A DNA stretch of 20,290 nt. It comes from a virus. Numbering within the stretch: position 1 is the stretch's first letter; the number at the start of each line of letters is the position of its first letter. The stretch covers positions 1-20,290 of IMG/VR virus record IMGVR_UViG_3300030107_002368, one strand, 5' to 3'. The position numbers and the translations under genes are program-made. This document shows, piece after piece, positions 5,004 to 15,477 of the stretch. The notes under the pieces are model-generated. The model was not told where the DNA came from. It worked only from the letters and a program-made list of their open reading frames with translations, and did no database searches.

Positions 5004-8000
5004 TTATCTAGCGTAGTCCGCTGGGCTAATGCCCGTCTGTCTAAATATTTGTGCAGCAACATCGCGTGTTACCACTTTTTTGCGGTACAATCCACGCAAA
5101 TACTCAATTTTACCCGTGTATGTCATATCTTCCATTTGTTGCATGATAAACATAGACCGCGCACCGCTGGAAACACCCAACCCACGCACGCGCTTGTCCA
5201 TACGAGTTGTCAAATTGGAATCGTCTTCAATCGCCTTTTTGTATTTTTGAAAAAGCGTCCGACTTCCACCACTGGCTTGGCGAGCGCGGATCATTCGGTT
5301 CATCGATGACATCCCCTTCGTGTCTTCAATAAACTGGTCAACGGCTTCGCGCTCCTCAAATTGGCGATCCGCTTCCGTTCGCTCAATTGCCTCCAATTGC
5401 TTTTCGGTTTCGGATTCGTTCACATACGGGCTGCGTATGAACCGCCGGAACAGCGGGCTCTGGTCACTAAACACTCCAAGCGGTTTGCGCCCAGTTTCCC
5501 GTGGCGGCATAAACTGCGTGAACAATCCCGCCGTCATTGTGCCGGTTAGCTGCTTTAGCATCAGCGGGGAACGGAACGATTCCGGCAAAGCCTCCGGCAT
5601 CTCCTTGGCAATTGTGCGGAATATTTGCGGTGTGCTTTTGAAATATTGATTTTTCGGTGACCGCGCTTTTAGGTTTTCGGGAATGATGTCGCGGTGCAGC
5701 CATGTGTTACGGTTCAGACCCAGTTCTATCGGCGCTTTAAATATTGGGTTTAAACTACTGACAACCGACTCAATACGTTCATCCATGTTTTCGCCTGTCA
5801 CGCTAACCGGCAAGATGTTCTCCAGAAATGTGAGCGCCATTAGCTTTAATCTCTTTGGCTCGCGTGTTTCCAGAAACGCCATTGATGACTCCACCACATT
5901 GGCGTACAGTTTTGAAATTTCTCTTTTGGGTATTCGATAATATTCGCGGACTCGCTTCCCCTCGTCGTTCACGAAAAACTGATTGGTCGGGATGTGCCAA
6001 TAATTTTCTTTGTCACGATCCGGAATTTCTTCGTAGTCGTCTTTAAATTCGTCAGAGTTGTTCAGCGCCCACAACGCAACAGTTGGAACACCCACCGCAG
6101 CACCAAGCCGTAGCTGGGCCAGCGCCGCTTTCTTGCCACCATCTTTACCAGCCAGTCTACCCAAGTCTGCGGCTACACCTTGTAATCTAGCGTTGAAATA
6201 CATAAACACAAGATTCAAATTCGCTGCTTTTGTGATTGCCCCCGTTCGGCCAAAATCCGGTGACCCAGCAAAGTTGCGGACTTCCGTCACAATATTCTCC
6301 ATCGCTTCACGCTGCTGATCCGGCGTCATCTTGGCCAACTTCTCGATCCTCATAGCGCGGCGCAGCCCCGTCAGCTTGCTCGTCTCTTCGATACTGCTGG
6401 CGAACTGAGCTACGGCGCGGATCATGCCCATCGGCGTAAGTTTAATGTCCCGCTCTGTCGGTTTGATTCGGAACAGTTCCGGCGTTAGTTCACGCTGCAA
6501 AGTTGATCTTGCAGCCCCACTCTCAAGAAATTGCTTATAGAGTGCGTTGGGCATTCCAAAGTTTCCGGCAATTGACGTGAACAGCGAGTACACGTAGTCG
6601 AGTGGTAACCGAATTAAGTCTGCCGGATTACGAAACCCATATTTGGACATCATGGCAAAGCGCGGAATGTCAGCCGCAAACAAGTTCACAATCTGGAACG
6701 CCATGTTGAACGATGTCGCACCGGCTTTCATCGGGATGGACGAGAGACGCATAGCCTTCTGCAACAAGCCCGTCGCTTGCGCGTTCAGTCCGCTGATGGC
6801 ATCTGCCACTTCCTTGTTCACCGCCAGATGTTTCTGCTCGCCGTCAATGAACACCGAAACTTCATGGTCGGCTTTCTCGCGCACCGTCTTTTTCTTCCCG
6901 ACTTTAGTTTCTTTCAGTTCACGAACCAGCCCTGTGTCATCGATCTTCGACAACTCGTACAGTTCCTGCATCTTCAGATTTTTGTCGGCCAGCATGTAGC
7001 CGGTAAGAATCTTGTCGTACGCTGCGTCAATAAAATCACCCAGCCGGAAGTCGGTGTCATCAATGCCGGTAATCATCTGGGTCAACTGTTTTGTTGTGTC
7101 AATGCGCTCGCCAGTCGCCGACGTGCTTTCTGAATCTTCCAGATGTTTCAACACAACAAACGGCGCGTAAAAATCGTTGGACGCCACGATGTCATTCAGC
7201 GTCTCTTGCGACATCCGTCCGCTGTCCACCTGCATACGGAGCATTGCCGCCATAAATTCCTGGTATTGGTCAATGGCGCTTTCAAGCTGCTCCATTTGCT
7301 TTGGTGTTACTTCCGCTTTTAGTTGTTTAAGCAGACGGTTCACATCGTCTAACGTCCAGTCAGCCACCCGCTTGCGGTGCTTCGCCGCTTCTTTGCGGAG
7401 ATTTCGTAGCTCTTGTATCTGCTCGTCCGTGTTCTCCGTGCGTGCTTCCGCTTCAGCGATTTTTTCGTTGAACTCGTCCAGCTTGCGCTGATTGTATTCC
7501 AGCCGCGACTTTGTGCGCCGCAAAAACATTAGCCGGTTGAACTCTTTTGTCAGCCCCTTGATCGGCTTTACCACCGCCTTGTGGAAATCCATCATTATTT
7601 TTTCGGCGCGTGCGGGGGAGCCAGCCAACTGCTCAAACTTGCGAGCCATGTCGAGTATGGGCGCTTTCTTGCCAGCCAGCTTGAACACTTTGCGCTCCAG
7701 ATGTTTCAGCGGGGCGAACCGCGTCAGAAAATTCGTGCTGAAGCTCTCGATGACGCCGCGCAGACGTGCGCCCAGCGTGGGCTTGTCAGTTTCCGGCGGC
7801 TGGAAGATTTTGTCCACGTCGTCCATCGTCTTGACGCCCGTCTCCACGTCCAGCTTGGCAGTTGCTTCCGGCTCCATCTCATCCAGCGCCTGTTTAACCG
7901 CCGTTTCCACCGGCATGTCCGGCGATTTTTGAATCAGCTTGCCAATCTCATCCAGTACGCTGCGTAGCTGCGCTTTGTCTGACTCGGACGGCTTGGGCTT

Positions 8001-11000
8001 ATCTAAACGCTGCTGGTCTATCTCCGACACAAGTGCCTCATTCGATGCATCTTCTCCAAGAATCTGGCGAGCTTTACGGACTTCTGGTGAACTCCATTTA
8101 ACGCGCTTATCTGGGCGCTTGGTGCTGGCCCCAAGATGCAGCCCCTCGGAAATTAGATTCGCTCTGGCCCGTGACAGCGCCGTGTCCACCGACGCACGCT
8201 TCTTGTTCGTGCGCTCCATGATCTCCGGAACCGTCAGCCCCTGCGCCGTCAACTGCATGACTTCACGCTGGGCCGGTGGCAATTTGTCGATGGCTTTTGC
8301 CACTCTCTGCAACTGCTCGCGTTTGCGGACAATGTCTTCCGGAGTCTTTTCCGTGGCTTCGCGGTCAATCACCGTCTGGCCCGTCTCGTCGGGTGTTGCA
8401 GTCTGTTCGACTGACCGACGCTGCTCTGTTCGTCCGGCGTCAATCACTCGACTGGCCGCGATCTGCGTGGCGTGGCGCTTCAACTGCTTGTCACGGTCTG
8501 TAATCTTGCCGGAACGCAACTGGCTTTCAATCTCCGTGCGGGTTTGCAGCGCAACGTCTCCGGCTACGTCTTCACGCTTGGACTGGTCGAACACACTACG
8601 ATTAGCCGCCTTCGTGGCAGCTTCTTGGATGAACAATATTTCGTCTTCCGTCAGTTTTGGCTCGGCTGCTGGCTCGGTGGTTGGCTCCGGTTCTGCAACC
8701 GTCTCGACTGTTGGCTCTGGTTGGGTTGCTGGTTCCGGCTTTGTCCACTTGCCGCGTTTATCATAAGTCTCAATGGGATCGGGTTTTCCCATTTCCATTT
8801 GGGCGGCACGATATGCGCTTGTAAAAACTCCAAATTCTTTATTGGCTTGCATCCACACGCGATAAGCAGCTTTAGCTTCGTTGCTTTCGACGCCAAACTC
8901 TTCAACGGTTTTTTTCCATGCCGCTTGAGCGTCATCGATATTTTTTTGGATTCTGTTTGTTTCGTCTAAATCCGGCTCCGGTTCTGCAACCGTTTCAGCT
9001 TTCCGATCTGCCACAACTTCGCTTGACGGTGTCACTAGTTCAGAAGCTGTCACTTCCAGCGGCTCGCTCAACACCTCTTCCAGCGTTTGCGGCTTGGCTT
9101 TCGACATCTCCCGCCGCTCCTGTTCAACCATCTGCGGATCAGTTGGCGGTGCTGCTGCACGACGATCCTCAACTGCCGCTTGCTGTTCCATGCCGACATC
9201 CGTCTGCACCTTGGCACGTTGCTCTTCAACCGCTGCTTGCTGCTCCATGCCAACGCCTGTCGGTGCATCTTCCGCACGTTGCAGTTCAATCTGCTCCTGA
9301 CGCGCAACATTTTCAACCGTCTCCGCTTGCTCTGCACGCCGCAACTCCACATCTGACATGTCGTTGGAACGCGCCTCCATATCCGACAAGACGCCCGACA
9401 GATTCTCCACGTCTGCGCGGATCGTCTCCGGATCAATGTCCGGACTGATGAACTTGCGGCGCATAAAGTCCATTGCACGACGAAAATAACCACGCGTGGC
9501 TGGGGCCGGTTTCATCCCAAGCTCGTTCCATAGAACACTCTCGGTGATGTCGCCATGCCGACGCTCTTGCACCAGCATGCGGACGAACTCCGCACCCATA
9601 GCCGCGTCGGTGACATCTTCGCCATACACACCGCGCACATAGTCTTTTTGAGCGTCCGTCATCTCCGACGTGATACGCTCGAAACGCTGCTGGGCATACT
9701 CGTCAAACGACAAGTCACTACCAGACGCTTCCCACTCGCCCAGTATGGACTTCAAATGCGCGTCGTGGATCGACTCTTCTTGGATCAAGCGACTGATGTA
9801 CTCGTCCGCATCGACGCCAGACTCTTTGATGTGTGCTTTGAGACGACGCACGTTTACCACCAACCGACCGGGGCCAGTAACGGCGGCGATATGCGGGTCG
9901 TCGGAATCCGTAAAAATTACTTCTTGAAAATCGCTGAACTTCGCGCCTTCCAAGCCCGTCACGACTTTGTTCGGCACGGAGCCGGTCTGGTTAATCTCTC
10001 CAGCGTTGGCCCCTTCATTGTGGATAACCAGATTGTCCTGAACGTCTATCGACTGGTTCTCGTCAACAGTTGGCTGGGCAGCGGCTTCTTCTTGCCGCTT
10101 CTTCATGTCTTCCAAAAACGCACCCAGCACTTTTTTCTCTCGGTCGTTCCGGATCGCATCCGACTTTGCTTGCGCTTCTTTTAAATCTTTCTGAACCGTC
10201 TTGTCTTTCAACAAGTTGATCCCCGACATGCCAGCTTGCTGCGCCGCACCGGGGCCAAGCTCGGCAATGCCTTCAATCAACACTTCCGATGGCGACGTGA
10301 TTTCCCCCTCTGAAACAAGTTGCCCCGCAGCTTCTCCGGTCGCACCACCAGCGGATTCAGTCATCAGCTTACGCCCCGGCGTGGCGACCATTCCCCCCAG
10401 CTTCATAGTGACGGCGTCGATAACTGCAATCGGGATGCCGTACTTCAAAGACTTGTTGCGTGCGCGATCAACAAAATCCGGATCGCTCATCGCAGTTTTG
10501 ATTGCGTCTGGGTTGGTGATGTCCACCCCTTCACCTTGCAGCATTTCGTTAAACTTGGAACCGTACGAAAGCCCAAGCGTCGTGACCACATTTCCAGCTA
10601 CAAAGCCAGTTCCCAGTCCGGCAACCGTTCCAACACCGGGAACAACCGATCCAGCCCCTGCCCCAGCCACAACAGCCGCCGGAACACGCATACGCCCGTA
10701 AGATAGTTGCGCGGCCAATGACTCAATGACCACTTGGGTCGTAATCTCAAACGGATCGCGGAAGAAGCGCCCAATCTTCTCCTCTTCCGGCGCTGCTGCA
10801 AATTCCTGGTATGCTTGACTGCCGCGAAGCATCTGGGAGCGCTTGTTTGCGAGTGCCATCTCCTCGATGCGATCTTCTTCAGTCCACTTGCCGCCGATTG
10901 TCTCGCCCATTAGCACGTCAGCGGTGGTGGCTTGGTTCAGTCCGCGCAGCCAAGCGTTGCGGATCATGCCGTACGTCGTGTCGTCTTCGTTTAAGTCAGC

Positions 11001-11150
11001 GCTGTACGACTCGAAATCTTCTTTGAACTCGGCGTCTTGACCCAGATAAACGGGATACTTCTCGCCAACAGCAATCGTCAGTTCTTCATCCGACAAGTCT
11101 TTGTAAGCGTCGGGATACTTGTCTCGGATGGCACGTATGGTGTCGCTCAT
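5004..11150 (-). CDS. Giant 2048-aa internal virion / DNA-ejection protein (polyvalent-type) with embedded sigma-70-like module
   Basis: It lies in the T7 gp16 position, last of three internal-protein genes behind the nozzle. Residues 1-35 hold a YPDAYKDLSDEEL motif common at the start of phage ejection proteins. About 152-200 is a Gly/Ala-rich hydrophobic stretch (VAGAGAGSVVPGVG), a possible membrane-inserting segment. Residues 458-465 read EESIHDAH, reminiscent of a degenerate zincin. Residues 632-672 are a 19-residue repeat, followed by a Pro/Glu linker. Residues 833-1005 resemble an ECF sigma factor (entered separately). About 1215-1300 is a coiled coil. About 1470-1900, with SFNMAFQIVNLFAADIPRF and NTWLHRDIIPENL, resembles the large polyvalent protein-associated domain LPD38. 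I infer that it is packaged and injected with the DNA. I saw no lysozyme or transglycosylase domain. The ATG overlaps the preceding stop (ATGA). Confidence 0.8.
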   Translation of the reverse strand: MSDTIRAIRDKYPDAYKDLSDEELTIAVGEKYPVYLGQDAEFKEDFESYSADLNEDDTTYGMIRNAWLRGLNQATTADVLMGETIGGKWTEEDRIEEMALANKRSQMLRGSQAYQEFAAAPEEEKIGRFFRDPFEITTQVVIESLAAQLSYGRMRVPAAVVAGAGAGSVVPGVGTVAGLGTGFVAGNVVTTLGLSYGSKFNEMLQGEGVDITNPDAIKTAMSDPDFVDRARNKSLKYGIPIAVIDAVTMKLGGMVATPGRKLMTESAGGATGEAAGQLVSEGEITSPSEVLIEGIAELGPGAAQQAGMSGINLLKDKTVQKDLKEAQAKSDAIRNDREKKVLGAFLEDMKKRQEEAAAQPTVDENQSIDVQDNLVIHNEGANAGEINQTGSVPNKVVTGLEGAKFSDFQEVIFTDSDDPHIAAVTGPGRLVVNVRRLKAHIKESGVDADEYISRLIQEESIHDAHLKSILGEWEASGSDLSFDEYAQQRFERITSEMTDAQKDYVRGVYGEDVTDAAMGAEFVRMLVQERRHGDITESVLWNELGMKPAPATRGYFRRAMDFMRRKFISPDIDPETIRADVENLSGVLSDMEARSNDMSDVELRRAEQAETVENVARQEQIELQRAEDAPTGVGMEQQAAVEEQRAKVQTDVGMEQQAAVEDRRAAAPPTDPQMVEQERREMSKAKPQTLEEVLSEPLEVTASELVTPSSEVVADRKAETVAEPEPDLDETNRIQKNIDDAQAAWKKTVEEFGVESNEAKAAYRVWMQANKEFGVFTSAYRAAQMEMGKPDPIETYDKRGKWTKPEPATQPEPTVETVAEPEPTTEPAAEPKLTEDEILFIQEAATKAANRSVFDQSKREDVAGDVALQTRTEIESQLRSGKITDRDKQLKRHATQIAASRVIDAGRTEQRRSVEQTATPDETGQTVIDREATEKTPEDIVRKREQLQRVAKAIDKLPPAQREVMQLTAQGLTVPEIMERTNKKRASVDTALSRARANLISEGLHLGASTKRPDKRVKWSSPEVRKARQILGEDASNEALVSEIDQQRLDKPKPSESDKAQLRSVLDEIGKLIQKSPDMPVETAVKQALDEMEPEATAKLDVETGVKTMDDVDKIFQPPETDKPTLGARLRGVIESFSTNFLTRFAPLKHLERKVFKLAGKKAPILDMARKFEQLAGSPARAEKIMMDFHKAVVKPIKGLTKEFNRLMFLRRTKSRLEYNQRKLDEFNEKIAEAEARTENTDEQIQELRNLRKEAAKHRKRVADWTLDDVNRLLKQLKAEVTPKQMEQLESAIDQYQEFMAAMLRMQVDSGRMSQETLNDIVASNDFYAPFVVLKHLEDSESTSATGERIDTTKQLTQMITGIDDTDFRLGDFIDAAYDKILTGYMLADKNLKMQELYELSKIDDTGLVRELKETKVGKKKTVREKADHEVSVFIDGEQKHLAVNKEVADAISGLNAQATGLLQKAMRLSSIPMKAGATSFNMAFQIVNLFAADIPRFAMMSKYGFRNPADLIRLPLDYVYSLFTSIAGNFGMPNALYKQFLESGAARSTLQRELTPELFRIKPTERDIKLTPMGMIRAVAQFASSIEETSKLTGLRRAMRIEKLAKMTPDQQREAMENIVTEVRNFAGSPDFGRTGAITKAANLNLVFMYFNARLQGVAADLGRLAGKDGGKKAALAQLRLGAAVGVPTVALWALNNSDEFKDDYEEIPDRDKENYWHIPTNQFFVNDEGKRVREYYRIPKREISKLYANVVESSMAFLETREPKRLKLMALTFLENILPVSVTGENMDERIESVVSSLNPIFKAPIELGLNRNTWLHRDIIPENLKARSPKNQYFKSTPQIFRTIAKEMPEALPESFRSPLMLKQLTGTMTAGLFTQFMPPRETGRKPLGVFSDQSPLFRRFIRSPYVNESETEKQLEAIERTEADRQFEEREAVDQFIEDTKGMSSMNRMIRARQASGGSRTLFQKYKKAIEDDSNLTTRMDKRVRGLGVSSGARSMFIMQQMEDMTYTGKIEYLRGLYRKKVVTRDVAAQIFRQTGISPADYAR
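8136..8654 (-). other. ECF-type sigma factor-like module inside the 2048-aa protein (residues ~833-1005)
   Basis: Residues 843-912 follow the pattern of sigma region 2: a helix with REDVAGDVALQT, matching the eD-x-x-Q-d-v-f-l element, then KQLKRHATQIAASRVIDAGR and RR, matching the region 2.3-2.4 helix a-x-N/S-x-x-i-D-x-x-R-x-x-R-R. After a 40-residue linker, residues 957-1003 match region 4: LPPAQREVMQLTAQGLTVPE, then a recognition helix and SVDTALSRARANL. Spacing and order equal those of a free ECF sigma factor (about 170 residues). Proline/glutamate-rich linkers flank the module. A simple DNA-binding HTH is the alternative for region 4 alone, but region 2 makes the sigma interpretation stronger. 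Confidence 0.72.
9135..9257 (-). repeat. 57-bp coding repeat (VGMEQQAAVE), two main copies
   Basis: VGMEQQAAVE occurs twice, with Met at residues 635 and 654, so the unit is 19 residues or 57 bases. Each copy is followed by an arginine-containing, diverged end (EQRAKVQT versus DRRAAAPPT). The repeats lie in a charged, glutamine-rich region that looks like an extended linker. The DNA copies differ at several third positions, so the duplication is not very recent. Confidence 0.7.
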
Positions 11151-11959
11151 GGAGCATCTCGATTAATGCGCTGGTTGCTGGGGAGGGTAAGATCCAGCGG
11201 ATTATTTGGATCAGTTGACTGGGATGTGTTACTGGGGGTTGCTCCGGCTGCCGCGCCGACATTGCTACCCATTCCTTTAATAGCATTCATAGCCGCTACC
11301 GCTTCCGATTGACTACCACCTTCAAACTGCAAGCCATAACTGACCCCGCCATCCCAATTGAATTGTGGACGTATACTCCACTTGCCCTCATGTGGCTGGT
11401 TGCTCGCCGCCATGAAAGCTCGTTCCAGTCCGGCTTTAAAATCTTTGTGATCAGCCAATAACTTCTTTTTAAGAGCATGCAAGTGAAGTAGATCTGACGG
11501 ATTAGTTGATAAAGACTGAATCTGAGCATCAATCGGAGCCACTTGGTCTGCAAGACGGCGATCGCCAGCGTTGGCTGTTTTTTGATATTCTTCCAACAAC
11601 CCTCGGTGGTATTTAAACTCAGTAATCGCTGGGTTGCGTGAGTCTTCCAGTTTTCTCTTGTTAATCTGGCGCTGCAATTTTTCGTTTTTCAACTTGGAAG
11701 AATCCACCGCCTTATCGCGAGATGCACTACGCTTGTCACGCTTCATCCCCTCTTTAAGAGATTTTATGCGAACATCGCTTTCACGCCTCTGACGTTTCTC
11801 TGACTTCTTACGCAATTCAAGTTCTTCACCAGCACGCTTGTCCGTTTTTTTACGATACTTGCGACGTTCCGCACGATCCGCTTGGGCCAAGTTGGCAGAA
11901 CGGATGTCCCGCGCCATCTGCATGCTCATCTGCATGCCCTGCATGAAATTGTTAGCCAT
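11147..11959 (-). CDS. Internal virion protein candidate, coiled-coil, 270 aa (T7 gp15 position)
   Basis: I do not recognise a named family. Residues 1-20 are methionine-rich (MANNFMQGMQMSMQMARDI). About 25-105 is a very basic, charged helix (RKYRKKTDKRAGEELELRKK and onward) predicted to form a coiled coil. The middle has further helices (EYQKTANAGDRRLADQV). The C-terminal 80 residues are Gly/Asn/Ser-rich, containing WSIRPQFNWDGGVSYGLQF and a low-complexity tail. It lies 3 bases after the 288-aa gene and overlaps the 2048-aa gene by 4, in the order of T7 gp14-gp15-gp16. I infer that it is part of the ejection complex assembled inside the capsid. The ATG at 11959 has a GGGAT element 5 bases upstream that overlaps the previous stop. 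Confidence 0.65.
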   Translation of the reverse strand: MANNFMQGMQMSMQMARDIRSANLAQADRAERRKYRKKTDKRAGEELELRKKSEKRQRRESDVRIKSLKEGMKRDKRSASRDKAVDSSKLKNEKLQRQINKRKLEDSRNPAITEFKYHRGLLEEYQKTANAGDRRLADQVAPIDAQIQSLSTNPSDLLHLHALKKKLLADHKDFKAGLERAFMAASNQPHEGKWSIRPQFNWDGGVSYGLQFEGGSQSEAVAAMNAIKGMGSNVGAAAGATPSNTSQSTDPNNPLDLTLPSNQRINRDAP

Positions 11960-11962
11960 TGT

Positions 11963-12829
11963 TTATCCCGTTGGCGTCACGCCAAAATAGTTGCTCACCC
12001 CTTTACCAAACCCAATTCCACCAGCCATGCCAGCCGCACCGCCAGTCAGCGCTTGCAAGCCGAATCCAGCCGCCATGCCGCCAATCTGGCTCCACGGACT
12101 CCCCTGCTGGGCAAGTTGCATTTGGTTCTGGTAGACGTTGCTTGTCGCTTGACCGAACTGCTGGTTCGTCATGGCTCCGACTCCGCTTTGCATGATATTC
12201 TGCCCCTGAAACGGACTCGCCCCTTGCTGCGCCCCGCTTAATGCACCGAACTGCGCGACCGGCGACACTCCAGCACCGAACGCGCCCATGTTGGCCAAGT
12301 CTTGTTGACGCATGCGATAACTCACATCACCGACAGCCATCGCTTCTTGAAGGCTGGGGGCGTTGCCGAACAAGTTGCCGCGTGCTGCTTGACTACCGCG
12401 TTCGCCCAGCATTGCCCCTTTCGCCGCTGCCAGAAAATCTTTCTCCCCACCTTCCATGATGCGGCGTGCCATCTCCTGACGCATGGCAAAGCCTTCCGGA
12501 TCGGCTGCTTCCATTTCCTTGCGACGCTGTGAAACAAACCGAACACCATGTTTTTCGCTCTGTTCCAGCATGCCTTCACTAATTTTATCAGCGGATTCCA
12601 AATAGTAATCCAAATTGGCGCGGGATAGATCGATGTCGCCGATGTCGGTGAAATCAACGTATTCGGTTTTGGAAAGTCCTCGTTTATCCTTGTACTCGAC
12701 AATGCCTTTCTCACCCAGTCGGGCCATTCGGTCGATTTTTTTCCGCGCTTCTAGAGTTTCAATGTCGGCAACTGCCGTCTCTCTTGCGGCGGCAGCGTAA
12801 TCCGGTTCGTCTGGACAAAAACAACCCAT
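11963..12829 (-). CDS. Internal virion protein candidate, 288 aa (T7 gp14 position)
   Basis: The ATG at 12829 lies 2 bases after the preceding stop and gives the N-terminus MGCFCPDEPDYAAAARETA. I know this kind of start from podovirus internal proteins. A TTG two codons earlier is a less likely start. The first 180 residues are charged helices. Residues ~190-245 are Gln/Gly/Met-rich (FGALSGAQQGASPFQGQN), and the C-terminus is Gly/Ala-rich and hydrophobic (GGMAAGFGLQALTGGAAGMA), compatible with membrane insertion as proposed for T7 gp14, which forms a pore in the outer membrane. The position right after the gp13-like gene supports this. The function is inferred from layout rather than from a catalytic motif. 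Confidence 0.68.
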   Translation of the reverse strand: MGCFCPDEPDYAAAARETAVADIETLEARKKIDRMARLGEKGIVEYKDKRGLSKTEYVDFTDIGDIDLSRANLDYYLESADKISEGMLEQSEKHGVRFVSQRRKEMEAADPEGFAMRQEMARRIMEGGEKDFLAAAKGAMLGERGSQAARGNLFGNAPSLQEAMAVGDVSYRMRQQDLANMGAFGAGVSPVAQFGALSGAQQGASPFQGQNIMQSGVGAMTNQQFGQATSNVYQNQMQLAQQGSPWSQIGGMAAGFGLQALTGGAAGMAGGIGFGKGVSNYFGVTPTG

Positions 12830-12831
12830 AA

Positions 12832-13203
12832 TCAAAAAGTCTTTAGCATTAAGTTGGATGAACCCATGTTAATATAACCGAAACGATCCATCACCGGCAA
12901 AAACGGCGACTGATTGCTCACTGGTGCAAGCATCGCTTGACTACCACTTATTCTAACCATGTTCTCCAACACGTTAATTATCTGCAAACTATCCCGTGCC
13001 TTGCATTTTTTACTGTGGAACCATGTGTTCACGGGTGTCATTGTTCCAACATTAGCATAGCCAATAATATCTCCCGACTTCTCAAAAACGTGAGTCGGAG
13101 CAATTGCCAAATGCCTATCTTCAAGTGCTTCATTATTTAATTTAATGAACTCATCTCTGTCTTTTACCGGTCTTACAACCGGCATGTTTTTCAGTACTTC
13201 CAT
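12832..13203 (-). CDS. GNAT-fold-like protein in the tail/internal-protein cluster, 123 aa (T7 gp13 position)
   Basis: The pattern recalls GNAT acetyltransferase-like proteins found between the nozzle and internal-protein genes of many podoviruses. It has THVFEKSGDIIGYANVG, the beta-hairpin of the fold, then HSKKCKARDSLQIINVLENM, a helix. It ends in SPFLPVMDRFGYINMGSSNL, like the C-terminal F-x-x-x-GF/Y of GNATs. I do not see the canonical acetyl-CoA loop (Q/R-x-x-G-x-G/A), so enzymatic acetylation is doubtful and a structural or assembly role is more likely. It begins with an ATG at 13203, 37 bases after the nozzle gene, with a loose AAGAA element upstream, and ends 2 bases before the next ATG. 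Confidence 0.55.
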   Translation of the reverse strand: MEVLKNMPVVRPVKDRDEFIKLNNEALEDRHLAIAPTHVFEKSGDIIGYANVGTMTPVNTWFHSKKCKARDSLQIINVLENMVRISGSQAMLAPVSNQSPFLPVMDRFGYINMGSSNLMLKTF

Positions 13204-13240
13204 AAATCAAATTCTTACACATCGTCTTACCCCATGCAAA

Positions 13241-14818
13241 TTACCGCTTCTCCGCATCTAGCCCCATGACTATGGCGCTCGACTTAACACCCCTCAACTG
13301 CATCTTGTTTTCAGCAGCCGATACGCGGTACTGCACCTCGTTAAACGTGCCTTTCGCCACCGTGCTAAACGATTTACGTATGACCGCGTCATCGCCGAAT
13401 ATCCACGGCAACGGCACGGGCAACGTGATTCCAGATCCTTCCGACGTGTCGATGCTTGACGGGTTCAGCCGCTGCTCGCTGCTGGTGTCGTCACGCGTCT
13501 GGAATACGTCCACATTGGCTCGACTGTTGTTAAACTCAAACTCTGCACTCCGGCCAATTTTGTCGTTTAATCGCTCGCGAAATATAAAAGCGCGTGTCTT
13601 GACGTGGGACGGGTAAAAGCTGCCGTCGTCCTTGTAGGTGCTGTCCGTCTCGTCGTCGTCCGAAACATATTCCAGCCATTTCATCACCTTGCCGTCCGTC
13701 TGGCCAAAGTGCATCCGCAAGTCTCCGGCAAATGCCGACTCGGCAAACACCGTGGGCGTCCAGCCAGACCAGTAGCCCGTCCATGAACGAGTAACGGTAT
13801 TGAAAACGAATGTGTAGTTTGGGGTGTCCGAACCAATCGGAACCGACAACAAATAGCGGTTGTTCCAGAACGTGGCGCATGACGTATGCGCTTTAGACCA
13901 GTTTATCTTGTCGATCCAGTCACGTATCGGCGTACTGATGGGCTGCGGCTCGACGATCGTCTGCGCTCCTTCCATGATCTGTCCAACACTCATCACTCCA
14001 AAGCGCGACAAGAAGAAACAGTCGCCACCGACTTGCGCCACCGTGCGCCGTGCAATGCACCCAACGCGGTCGCTGACTTTCTTGATCCACCAGTTCGCCG
14101 CTATTAACAGCGACGGATCAGTGTTAACAATGTAAACGCTTCGCTCTTTAAAAACCAGGAGATTGAAATTGTGCCACGAATGCAATGCGCGGATCGGGTC
14201 GCCGCTGTGTCCACCGATTCGTATCTGGTTGGTTGTGGTGTTCCACGTTTCTCCATCCAGTATGTCGGACGCCCACAATGCGTCGTCGGGTTGTCCGCTT
14301 ACGCCGAACCCAAATAGCCGGTTCGTGTGGGATGTGATGCTGGTAAACGCCAGACCATGCTCACTTGGAACCGTGCTGTTGGCGTCGTTTGTGATCATCC
14401 GCATCACGCTGCTGCCGTCAGCGACAAACATCTTGTCAACCAACTGCACAAAATCGACTTGGTTGGTGGCGTGGACGGAGTTTTTCGCGCCCGTCAACTG
14501 CGTCCAACTGCTGTCAGCCGCGTCGCAGCGGTACAAGTTCCCACCCGTGGCACTGATCAACCGCTCCTTGGTTGCAGTCGGATTGTCGTAGTACGCAAGT
14601 CCTTGAATGTTTGTCGAGTGCGCCGTGGACGGAAACTTCACCGTGCCTTTACGAGTGACCACTGTCCCGAACGTGTCCACATCCACGTTTTTTCCGTCAC
14701 TGAACTGATCTTGATTCAGCAGATTTGGACGAACACCGCTGACTTGCCCCCCGATAAATGAAATCGAATTGTCGAAGACCAGTGGCTCGTCAAGCAGATT
14801 GGAAGCGTATCGTGGCAT
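13241..14818 (-). CDS. Tail nozzle protein (tail tubular protein B / P22 gp10-type), 525 aa
   Basis: The N-terminus has the pattern of beta-propeller nozzle proteins of short-tailed phages: ISFIGGQVSGVRPNLLNQDQ, then KNVDVDTFGTVVTRKGTVKF. In the middle are LWASDILDGETW, RIGGHSGDPIRALHSWHNF, LLVFKERSVYIVNTDPS and VGCIARRTVAQVGGDCFFLS, the repeated propeller strands typical of this group. In the virion this protein closes the tail tube and contacts the cell surface. The preceding gene encodes the tail adaptor, and internal-protein genes follow, the same order as T7 genes 11-12-13-14. It starts with an ATG at 14818, 2 bases after the adaptor stop and without a recognisable Shine-Dalgarno. I cannot decide between T7 gp12-like and P22 gp10-like ancestry by eye. 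Confidence 0.78.
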   Translation of the reverse strand: MPRYASNLLDEPLVFDNSISFIGGQVSGVRPNLLNQDQFSDGKNVDVDTFGTVVTRKGTVKFPSTAHSTNIQGLAYYDNPTATKERLISATGGNLYRCDAADSSWTQLTGAKNSVHATNQVDFVQLVDKMFVADGSSVMRMITNDANSTVPSEHGLAFTSITSHTNRLFGFGVSGQPDDALWASDILDGETWNTTTNQIRIGGHSGDPIRALHSWHNFNLLVFKERSVYIVNTDPSLLIAANWWIKKVSDRVGCIARRTVAQVGGDCFFLSRFGVMSVGQIMEGAQTIVEPQPISTPIRDWIDKINWSKAHTSCATFWNNRYLLSVPIGSDTPNYTFVFNTVTRSWTGYWSGWTPTVFAESAFAGDLRMHFGQTDGKVMKWLEYVSDDDETDSTYKDDGSFYPSHVKTRAFIFRERLNDKIGRSAEFEFNNSRANVDVFQTRDDTSSEQRLNPSSIDTSEGSGITLPVPLPWIFGDDAVIRKSFSTVAKGTFNEVQYRVSAAENKMQLRGVKSSAIVMGLDAEKR

Positions 14819-14820
14819 GG

Positions 14821-15477
14821 TTAGTTAAAATCATTTGCCACCCACGCGGATTCCACATCCGGAACCAGTTGCTGCACCCGTGCAGACTGGTGCTTTTCCA
14901 TGTCACGCATTAACTGCAAATGCGCCCCAGCTTCTTGCAGCTTGGCTTGCGCCTTCGCGTACTGCTGCAAATACTCCAGCGCATCGGCTTCCACGAACGC
15001 CACCAGCGCATTGTCAATGCCGCTCAATTTCGGGCTGTCATTGTCACCGAGTTCCGTGACGTACAGCTTGCCCAAAACTAACAGCGTCTTGCTGCTGTCC
15101 GGTATCCGGAGCAACTTGATTTGCGAGTACGTGCCACTTGGGCCAGTGGTTTTCGGCAGCACAATAAAATCTGTTGGCGTCCCAGTTTCCGCAAGCAACG
15201 CCGGATTTATCTGGAACACACGCTGATAATCTACCGGCGTGATTTCCCGTTCGTCCCAATATGCAGACACGGGAAAATCCATTGTCGTGGACAGTGAGAT
15301 GATTTCCGTACCGCTTGCCACTGTTTGGCTCACCGTTCCCAGCGCTTCACGCCATAACTCGGTGTTCCATATCATCTCGTAGCGACGATCCACAAACGTC
15401 TTGAAGACAGCCAGACTGTCGTCGTCCGTACTGTGGACTTTTTCACCGACGTAGTTTGCTATGTTCGCTTTGGTCAC
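14821..15477 (-). CDS. Tail adaptor (tail tubular protein A / head-tail connector ring), 218 aa
   Basis: The N-terminal helical part with FVDRRYEMIWNTELWREAL is characteristic of the portal-binding tail adaptor of podoviruses (T7 gp11 / P22 gp4 group). A beta-rich middle follows (TEIISLSTTMDFPVSAYWDE, KTLLVLGKLYVTELGD). A C-terminal helical tail (FVEADALEYLQQYAKAQAKL) is typical of the end that docks on the portal. The protein would form a ring between portal and nozzle. The start is a GTG at 15477 that overlaps the tailspike stop by 4 bases (GTGA), with no Shine-Dalgarno visible, so coupling to the spike gene is likely. The nozzle gene follows after 2 bases, as expected for this pair. Confidence 0.75.
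   Translation of the reverse strand: MTKANIANYVGEKVHSTDDDSLAVFKTFVDRRYEMIWNTELWREALGTVSQTVASGTEIISLSTTMDFPVSAYWDEREITPVDYQRVFQINPALLAETGTPTDFIVLPKTTGPSGTYSQIKLLRIPDSSKTLLVLGKLYVTELGDNDSPKLSGIDNALVAFVEADALEYLQQYAKAQAKLQEAGAHLQLMRDMEKHQSARVQQLVPDVESAWVANDFN

Follow-up and report, generated by a model that had tools for sequence, protein, structure and literature searches.

An ECF-sigma-like module inside a giant virion-type phage protein, and a matching promoter-like motif in related phages, suggest that a phage may bring its own transcription switch

The DNA analysed here (the window) comprises a whole IMG/VR virus record, 20,290 bases long, and a giant gene within it raises the question of whether a phage can carry its own promoter specificity into a host together with its DNA. 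Among known phages, N4 injects an entire RNA polymerase and T4 injects the enzyme Alt, which modifies the polymerase of its host. The gene in question (5004–11150, minus strand) encodes a polyvalent-type protein of 2048 amino acids that has full-length relatives and carries LPD38 and sigma domains. A sequence-only reading had proposed that a sigma-factor-like module with both region 2 and region 4 is embedded in this protein. The four peptides it quoted were all found, in the order it gave, inside residues 833–1005 (8136–8654, minus strand).

On the giant protein, Pfam recognizes sigma region 4 only (Sigma70_r4_2, PF08281, E 3.2e-9, residues 948–999), which is the region 4 match that had been anticipated. 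The NCBIfam model of the whole ECF factor, TIGR02937, covers positions 15–162 of 165 (E 1.5e-13; 50.7 bits, with a curated cut-off of 42.9 bits). This match is placed at 8151–8615 of the window and takes in region 2, the linker and region 4. Both models match six of six module homologues, and searching the records with TIGR02937 gave one match each in the window and five relatives, all above the cut-off. PHROG 1740, ‘RNA polymerase sigma factor’, matches residues 837–1000 (E 2.9e-10), and hhalign matched the module family to a profile of 13 ECF-type proteins, E. coli RpoE and FecI included, with a probability of 99.3 (E 5e-20). When a plasmid collection was searched with the module, nearly all matches were genes annotated as sigma factors, several of the matches spanning region 2.2 through region 4.

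The module is laid out as a region 2-like part (residues 835–915; 8406–8648, minus strand), a linker with family-conserved residues (916–936; 8343–8405, minus strand) and a region 4-like helix-turn-helix part (937–1001; 8148–8342, minus strand). Two features by which ECF factors are judged, regions 2 and 4 in order with a short linker between them (TIGR02937, hhalign and the structural model) and a helix-turn-helix in region 4 (PF08281), are both present. We regard it as confirmed, far beyond chance, that residues from about 835 to 1001 constitute a complete ECF-sigma-like module. No polymerase domain was found among the Pfam or PHROG matches of the 2048-residue protein.

Region 2 searched alone has no Pfam or NCBIfam match. 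However, profile–profile comparison of region 2 with the corresponding part of the ECF profile gave a score of 23.4, whereas 300 column shuffles scored at most 16.9 and windows elsewhere in the giant protein at most 15.6. With the distant homologue G006 added, the score was 29.9 (probability 77, E 2e-5; best shuffle 15.2), and region 2 of G006 alone reached a probability of 85. Region 2 in isolation thus fails against the family databases but is significant over shuffles, and the claim of the sequence-only reading, a module with both regions, is borne out by TIGR02937, hhalign and this comparison together. Reading region 4 as a generic helix-turn-helix is ruled out by the fit of the full-length ECF model and by region 2, which outscores the shuffles and every other part of the protein.

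Structure prediction agrees with this assignment. The AlphaFold2 model of the module consists of three helices in region 2, a linker of low pLDDT and a four-helix region 4. Foldseek searches with this model place ECF sigma structures at the top in the PDB and mostly phage ECF sigmas at the top ranks in BFVD, and VIA-align 2 returns sigma factors throughout its top rows. A separate prediction of region 2 has high confidence (pLDDT 86.8), and sigma region 2 heads its VIA-align ranking (RpoE, Z 8.3, rmsd 2.3 over 78 residues; T4 gp55, Z 7.8), although Z values of this size can be reached by helical bundles by chance. Foldseek with region 2 alone gave no PDB match with E below 1.

All relatives found whose sequence extends to this part of the gene contain the module (L002, L003, L004, L006 and L007), which answers the call to look for the same insertion in related phages. 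Profiles of identity and gaps along the protein reveal that the flanking linkers vary greatly in sequence and length while the module stays. The N-terminal linker (8655–9089, minus strand) is rich in Pro, Glu and Gln and hypervariable, and the C-terminal linker (residues 1010–1085; 7896–8123, minus strand) is variable as well. The linkers had been taken as a hint of a proteolytically released domain; their composition at the N-terminal side and their variability stand, and there is no positive evidence for release; no protease that would free the module was found. Values of dN/dS for the module lie between 0.13 and 0.28 in the pairs compared, several values for diverged pairs being saturated, and region 4 alone gives 0.6–0.9 in the two closest pairs, where changes are few.

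A divergent relative is G006, a 41-kb record whose tail tubular and neighbouring genes are 82–98% identical to those of the window. Its giant protein (L082:5266-11664; 2133 amino acids) is 29% identical to that of the window over the first 594 residues, and its C-terminal half has no meaningful similarity to the window protein and no LPD38 detectable by Pfam. The ECF module is nevertheless kept (TIGR02937 positions 10–165, E 2.2e-10, 35.1 bits, below the curated cut-off). The G006 protein also has an extra insert around VVAVPSLKNQQLIPSKNVVTQI...FIDSGAFRAF, which by eye looks like a tRNA-guanine-transglycosylase-type barrel.

Several matches outside the family were rejected as relatives. MT835918.1 (L011), a human faecal contig recorded as ‘Bacteriophage sp.’, matches the module through a free-standing ECF-like open reading frame. 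The contig carries several sigma-like genes, a cluster of AgrB-like and histidine-kinase genes and transporter-like genes, and looks like a bacterial contig. In bacterial genomes, no relatives of the giant protein were found with A2, and A1 gave three weak matches (28–40% identity); the two whose open reading frames were read look like free-standing ECF-type sigmas.

What kind of protein carries the module is indicated by its C-terminal half and its neighbours. Pfam places LPD38 at residues 1703–1878 (PF18857, E 2.5e-19; 5517–6044, minus strand), so that the earlier likeness to LPD38 is now a family match. The giant gene stands last in a minus-strand series whose upstream part, a virion cassette at 11147–15477, has the same order in relatives: tail tubular A-like (14821–15477), tail tubular B-like (13241–14818, also matched by PHROG virion families), acetyltransferase-like (12832–13203) and two internal-virion-type proteins (11963–12835 and 11147–11959). 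The annotated Pelagibacter phage Lederberg has tail tubular A, tail tubular B, acetyltransferase, internal virion protein, an open reading frame and an LPD38 giant, and this synteny supports the suggestion that the gene occupies a position like that of T7 gp16. With LPD38 and a sigma module in one long chain, in a virion gene context, the protein fits the description of polyvalent proteins, which are effectors injected with DNA and include the N4 virion polymerase (PMC5512222). The LPD38 giant of Burkholderia phage JC1, gp69, was found by mass spectrometry in CsCl-purified virions (PMC9144972). We conclude that the giant protein is probably a virion ejection protein; the gene context is observed, and presence in the virion is inferred from it and by analogy with JC1 gp69.

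The relatives encode a terminase, an SU10-type portal, recombination genes and a DnaC-like loader, some also an integrase, and no RNA polymerase gene was recognized in them. The portal of G005 (L030:16000-17859) is a match to Pfam SU10_portal; the family takes its name from SU10, a phiEco32-like phage from a group whose members encode their own ECF sigma factors (PMC7881722). No cultured close relative was found that could serve as a source for the host; the nearest TerL is 39% identical and belongs to Akkermansia phages.

If the module acts as a sigma factor, a promoter-like element might be expected upstream of early genes, as the sequence-only reading had suggested. Such an element was found, in the relatives only, since the window record stops before the small-gene operon. 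Comparing relatives with themselves revealed an element repeated between the small genes of one operon, with the core GTAAG-N16/17-CGTAA. The strict pattern occurs four times in G005 and twice in G004, the discovery set, and three times in G002 and twice in G003, which served as replicates, where first-order resampling predicts 0.14–0.22 per record. All of these sites lie on the strand of the operon just upstream of an ATG, although G004 and G005 are close relatives, as are G002 and G003, so that their sites do not count as independent. Further replicates came from G006, with three sites, and from a family contig of 4399 bases with a terminase and a small-gene operon (L073, IMGVR_UViG_3300032087_005335), with four.

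In total, the motif occurs at 18 sites in the small-gene operons, and 18 of 18 have, within 55 nucleotides, an ATG opening a reading frame of at least 25 codons, compared with 31% of random positions. Spacing in the strict form is 16 in 12 sites and 17 in 5, whereas any other spacing from 8 to 26 occurs at most once. The motif is absent from 114 kb of control phage DNA, and a scan of IMG/VR with a 16-base form of it returned 20 stretches, with more than one site only in contigs of this phage family, the new contig L073 among them. In the G003 contig (L050), tandem TGTAA(A/G)A-ATATGCGACAGTCAA repeats at positions 9420–9550, spaced by about 22 bp, precede the terminase gene and contain the TGTAAG word of the motif.

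The G of CGTA sits where sigma70 needs the second base of TATAAT, an A. Sites of the sigma70 promoter type, considered as a separate candidate, show no excess over shuffles in the window, L030 or L032. Judged by its letters, GTAAG-N16/17-CGTA resembles ECF promoters in architecture: the Bacillus subtilis SigW promoter is TGAAAC-N16,17-CGTA (PMC2375139), and those mapped for SaPh711_gp47, the sigma of phage 7-11, have the bipartite form GTAAtg-(16)-aCTA, whose GTAA-type element and 16-nucleotide spacer are close to the motif found here (PMC8948821). The motif precedes the small-gene operon, where early genes lie in such phages, and we read it as a promoter-like signal of presumed early genes; gene content and position are the sole grounds for regarding the operon as early.

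A built-in sigma module in a probably injected protein, together with a matching motif before presumed early genes, suggests that the phage may enter already equipped to take over transcription. In the model that we favour, the giant is a polyvalent-type ejection protein in which flexible linkers flank an entire built-in ECF-type sigma. As part of the virion operon it would be made late, and a late-made sigma that serves early genes from the start of infection must arrive with the particle; the protein would thus be packaged and enter the next host with the DNA, both steps being inferences. There the module, by an inferred release or still within the chain, would bind the host RNA polymerase core and direct it to GTAAG-N16/17-CGTA promoters before the early operon. 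That the module binds the polymerase, recognizes the motif and initiates there is likewise deduced rather than observed. Transcription could then begin before any phage protein is made, by the logic of the N4 virion polymerase but with catalysis supplied by the host enzyme. What has been observed is that the module is homologous to ECF sigmas and shares their fold, that the relatives reaching it conserve it, the virion gene context and the motif in the relatives' small-gene operons. We put the probability of this model, in which an ECF sigma brought by the virion steers host RNA polymerase to the early genes, at roughly 0.6. The more specific version, in which the ejection protein delivers the sigma and the early promoters are read by host RNA polymerase only with it, we hold to be slightly better than an even bet.

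The sequence of region 2 leaves room for a different role, in which the module is a sigma-derived passenger that no longer initiates transcription and instead binds host RNA polymerase or DNA so as to silence host transcription, take it over, or assist the entry of the DNA. Region 2.2 does not retain the canonical D..QE: the D alone is invariant, and the register is uncertain. Loss of polymerase-contact residues in homologues had been named as grounds for refutation, and this has partly come about, in that the canonical region 2.2 contacts to beta-prime are not kept in relatives, so a module that binds without initiating remains possible. Region 2 is also the part of the module that changes fastest between clades (about 30% identical, versus about 60% elsewhere in the module). 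Retention of the region 2.3–2.4 residues IA.N/S...D.GR argues the other way, as does the occurrence of an ECF-type promoter motif in the same phages, and we consider such a passenger unlikely.

That motif, in turn, is connected to the module by co-occurrence only, and the host is unknown, so a host ECF sigma or another phage factor could read it while the module serves a separate purpose. Host ECF sigmas are usually kept inactive by anti-sigma factors, which counts against a host reader. No second TIGR02937 match was found in any family record searched, and contigs with several sites come, in IMG/VR, only from this phage family; we find a separate reader improbable. It is also conceivable that the module works late, in the cell that produces the virions, without delivery by the particle, in the manner of the known phage ECF sigmas phiEco32 gp36 and 7-11 gp47, which the infected cell produces for use at middle or late promoters (PMC8948821). 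The motif, however, precedes the small-gene operon and not late genes, and the module is part of an LPD38 giant of the virion type, which together make a late-phase sigma very hard to sustain.

Like the module in this model, gp47 and gp36 are phage sigmas that work with host RNA polymerase. They differ in being free-standing, and the early genes of their phages use host sigma70, whereas the module described here lies inside a virion-type giant and the motif in an early-type operon. In the proposed system, as with N4 gp50, a giant virion protein of several domains would bring transcription machinery for the early genes into the cell (PMC5512222). N4 brings a whole single-subunit polymerase, however, and here only a promoter-specificity module would be brought, with the host enzyme as catalyst, so the analogy is one of logic only. 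T4 Alt enters the cell together with the DNA and immediately redirects the host's RNA polymerase, yet it does so by ADP-ribosylating the polymerase and is not a sigma factor (PMC5512222).

Other LPD38 giants (JC1 gp69 and those of the pelagiphage and of Vibrio phages) share the LPD38 domain, the position at the end of the virion cassette and passenger domains in the same chain. The Vibrio phage FGH protein has a methyltransferase passenger and that of Vibrio phage 1.232.O has helicase, methyltransferase and acetyltransferase passengers, while those of the pelagiphage and Escherichia phage Pondi have none that is recognized. None of the LPD38 giants scanned from other phages carries a sigma module. 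A survey of polyvalent proteins does not mention sigma, and we found no match in open papers for a virion-borne or injected sigma factor, which is not proof of absence. If delivery of the module is correct, an injected sigma would be a third and more economical route to seizing transcription at time zero, with virion-borne promoter specificity in place of a virion polymerase. It would pair a virion-protein module with the promoter code that matches it in the genome, and add transcription initiation to the list of polyvalent-protein payloads.

Two minor observations concern polyvalent proteins more generally. Limnohabitans phage DC33 (L048, PQ492659.1) is filed under Inoviridae yet has 39 kb and encodes a 3-kb-residue polyvalent protein with LPD22 and an ADP-ribosyltransferase domain; its placement looks wrong. 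In the giant protein of the window, a segment at residues about 455–470 (window 9231–9998, minus strand), QEE[SA]IHDAHL, is invariant in seven of seven aligned family members, and its counterpart in G006 is QEEAIHAAHL. From its letters, this segment looks like a zincin-type HExxxH site with Q replacing the first H, and the region may be a peptidase domain of the type found in polyvalent proteins, either inactive or unusual.
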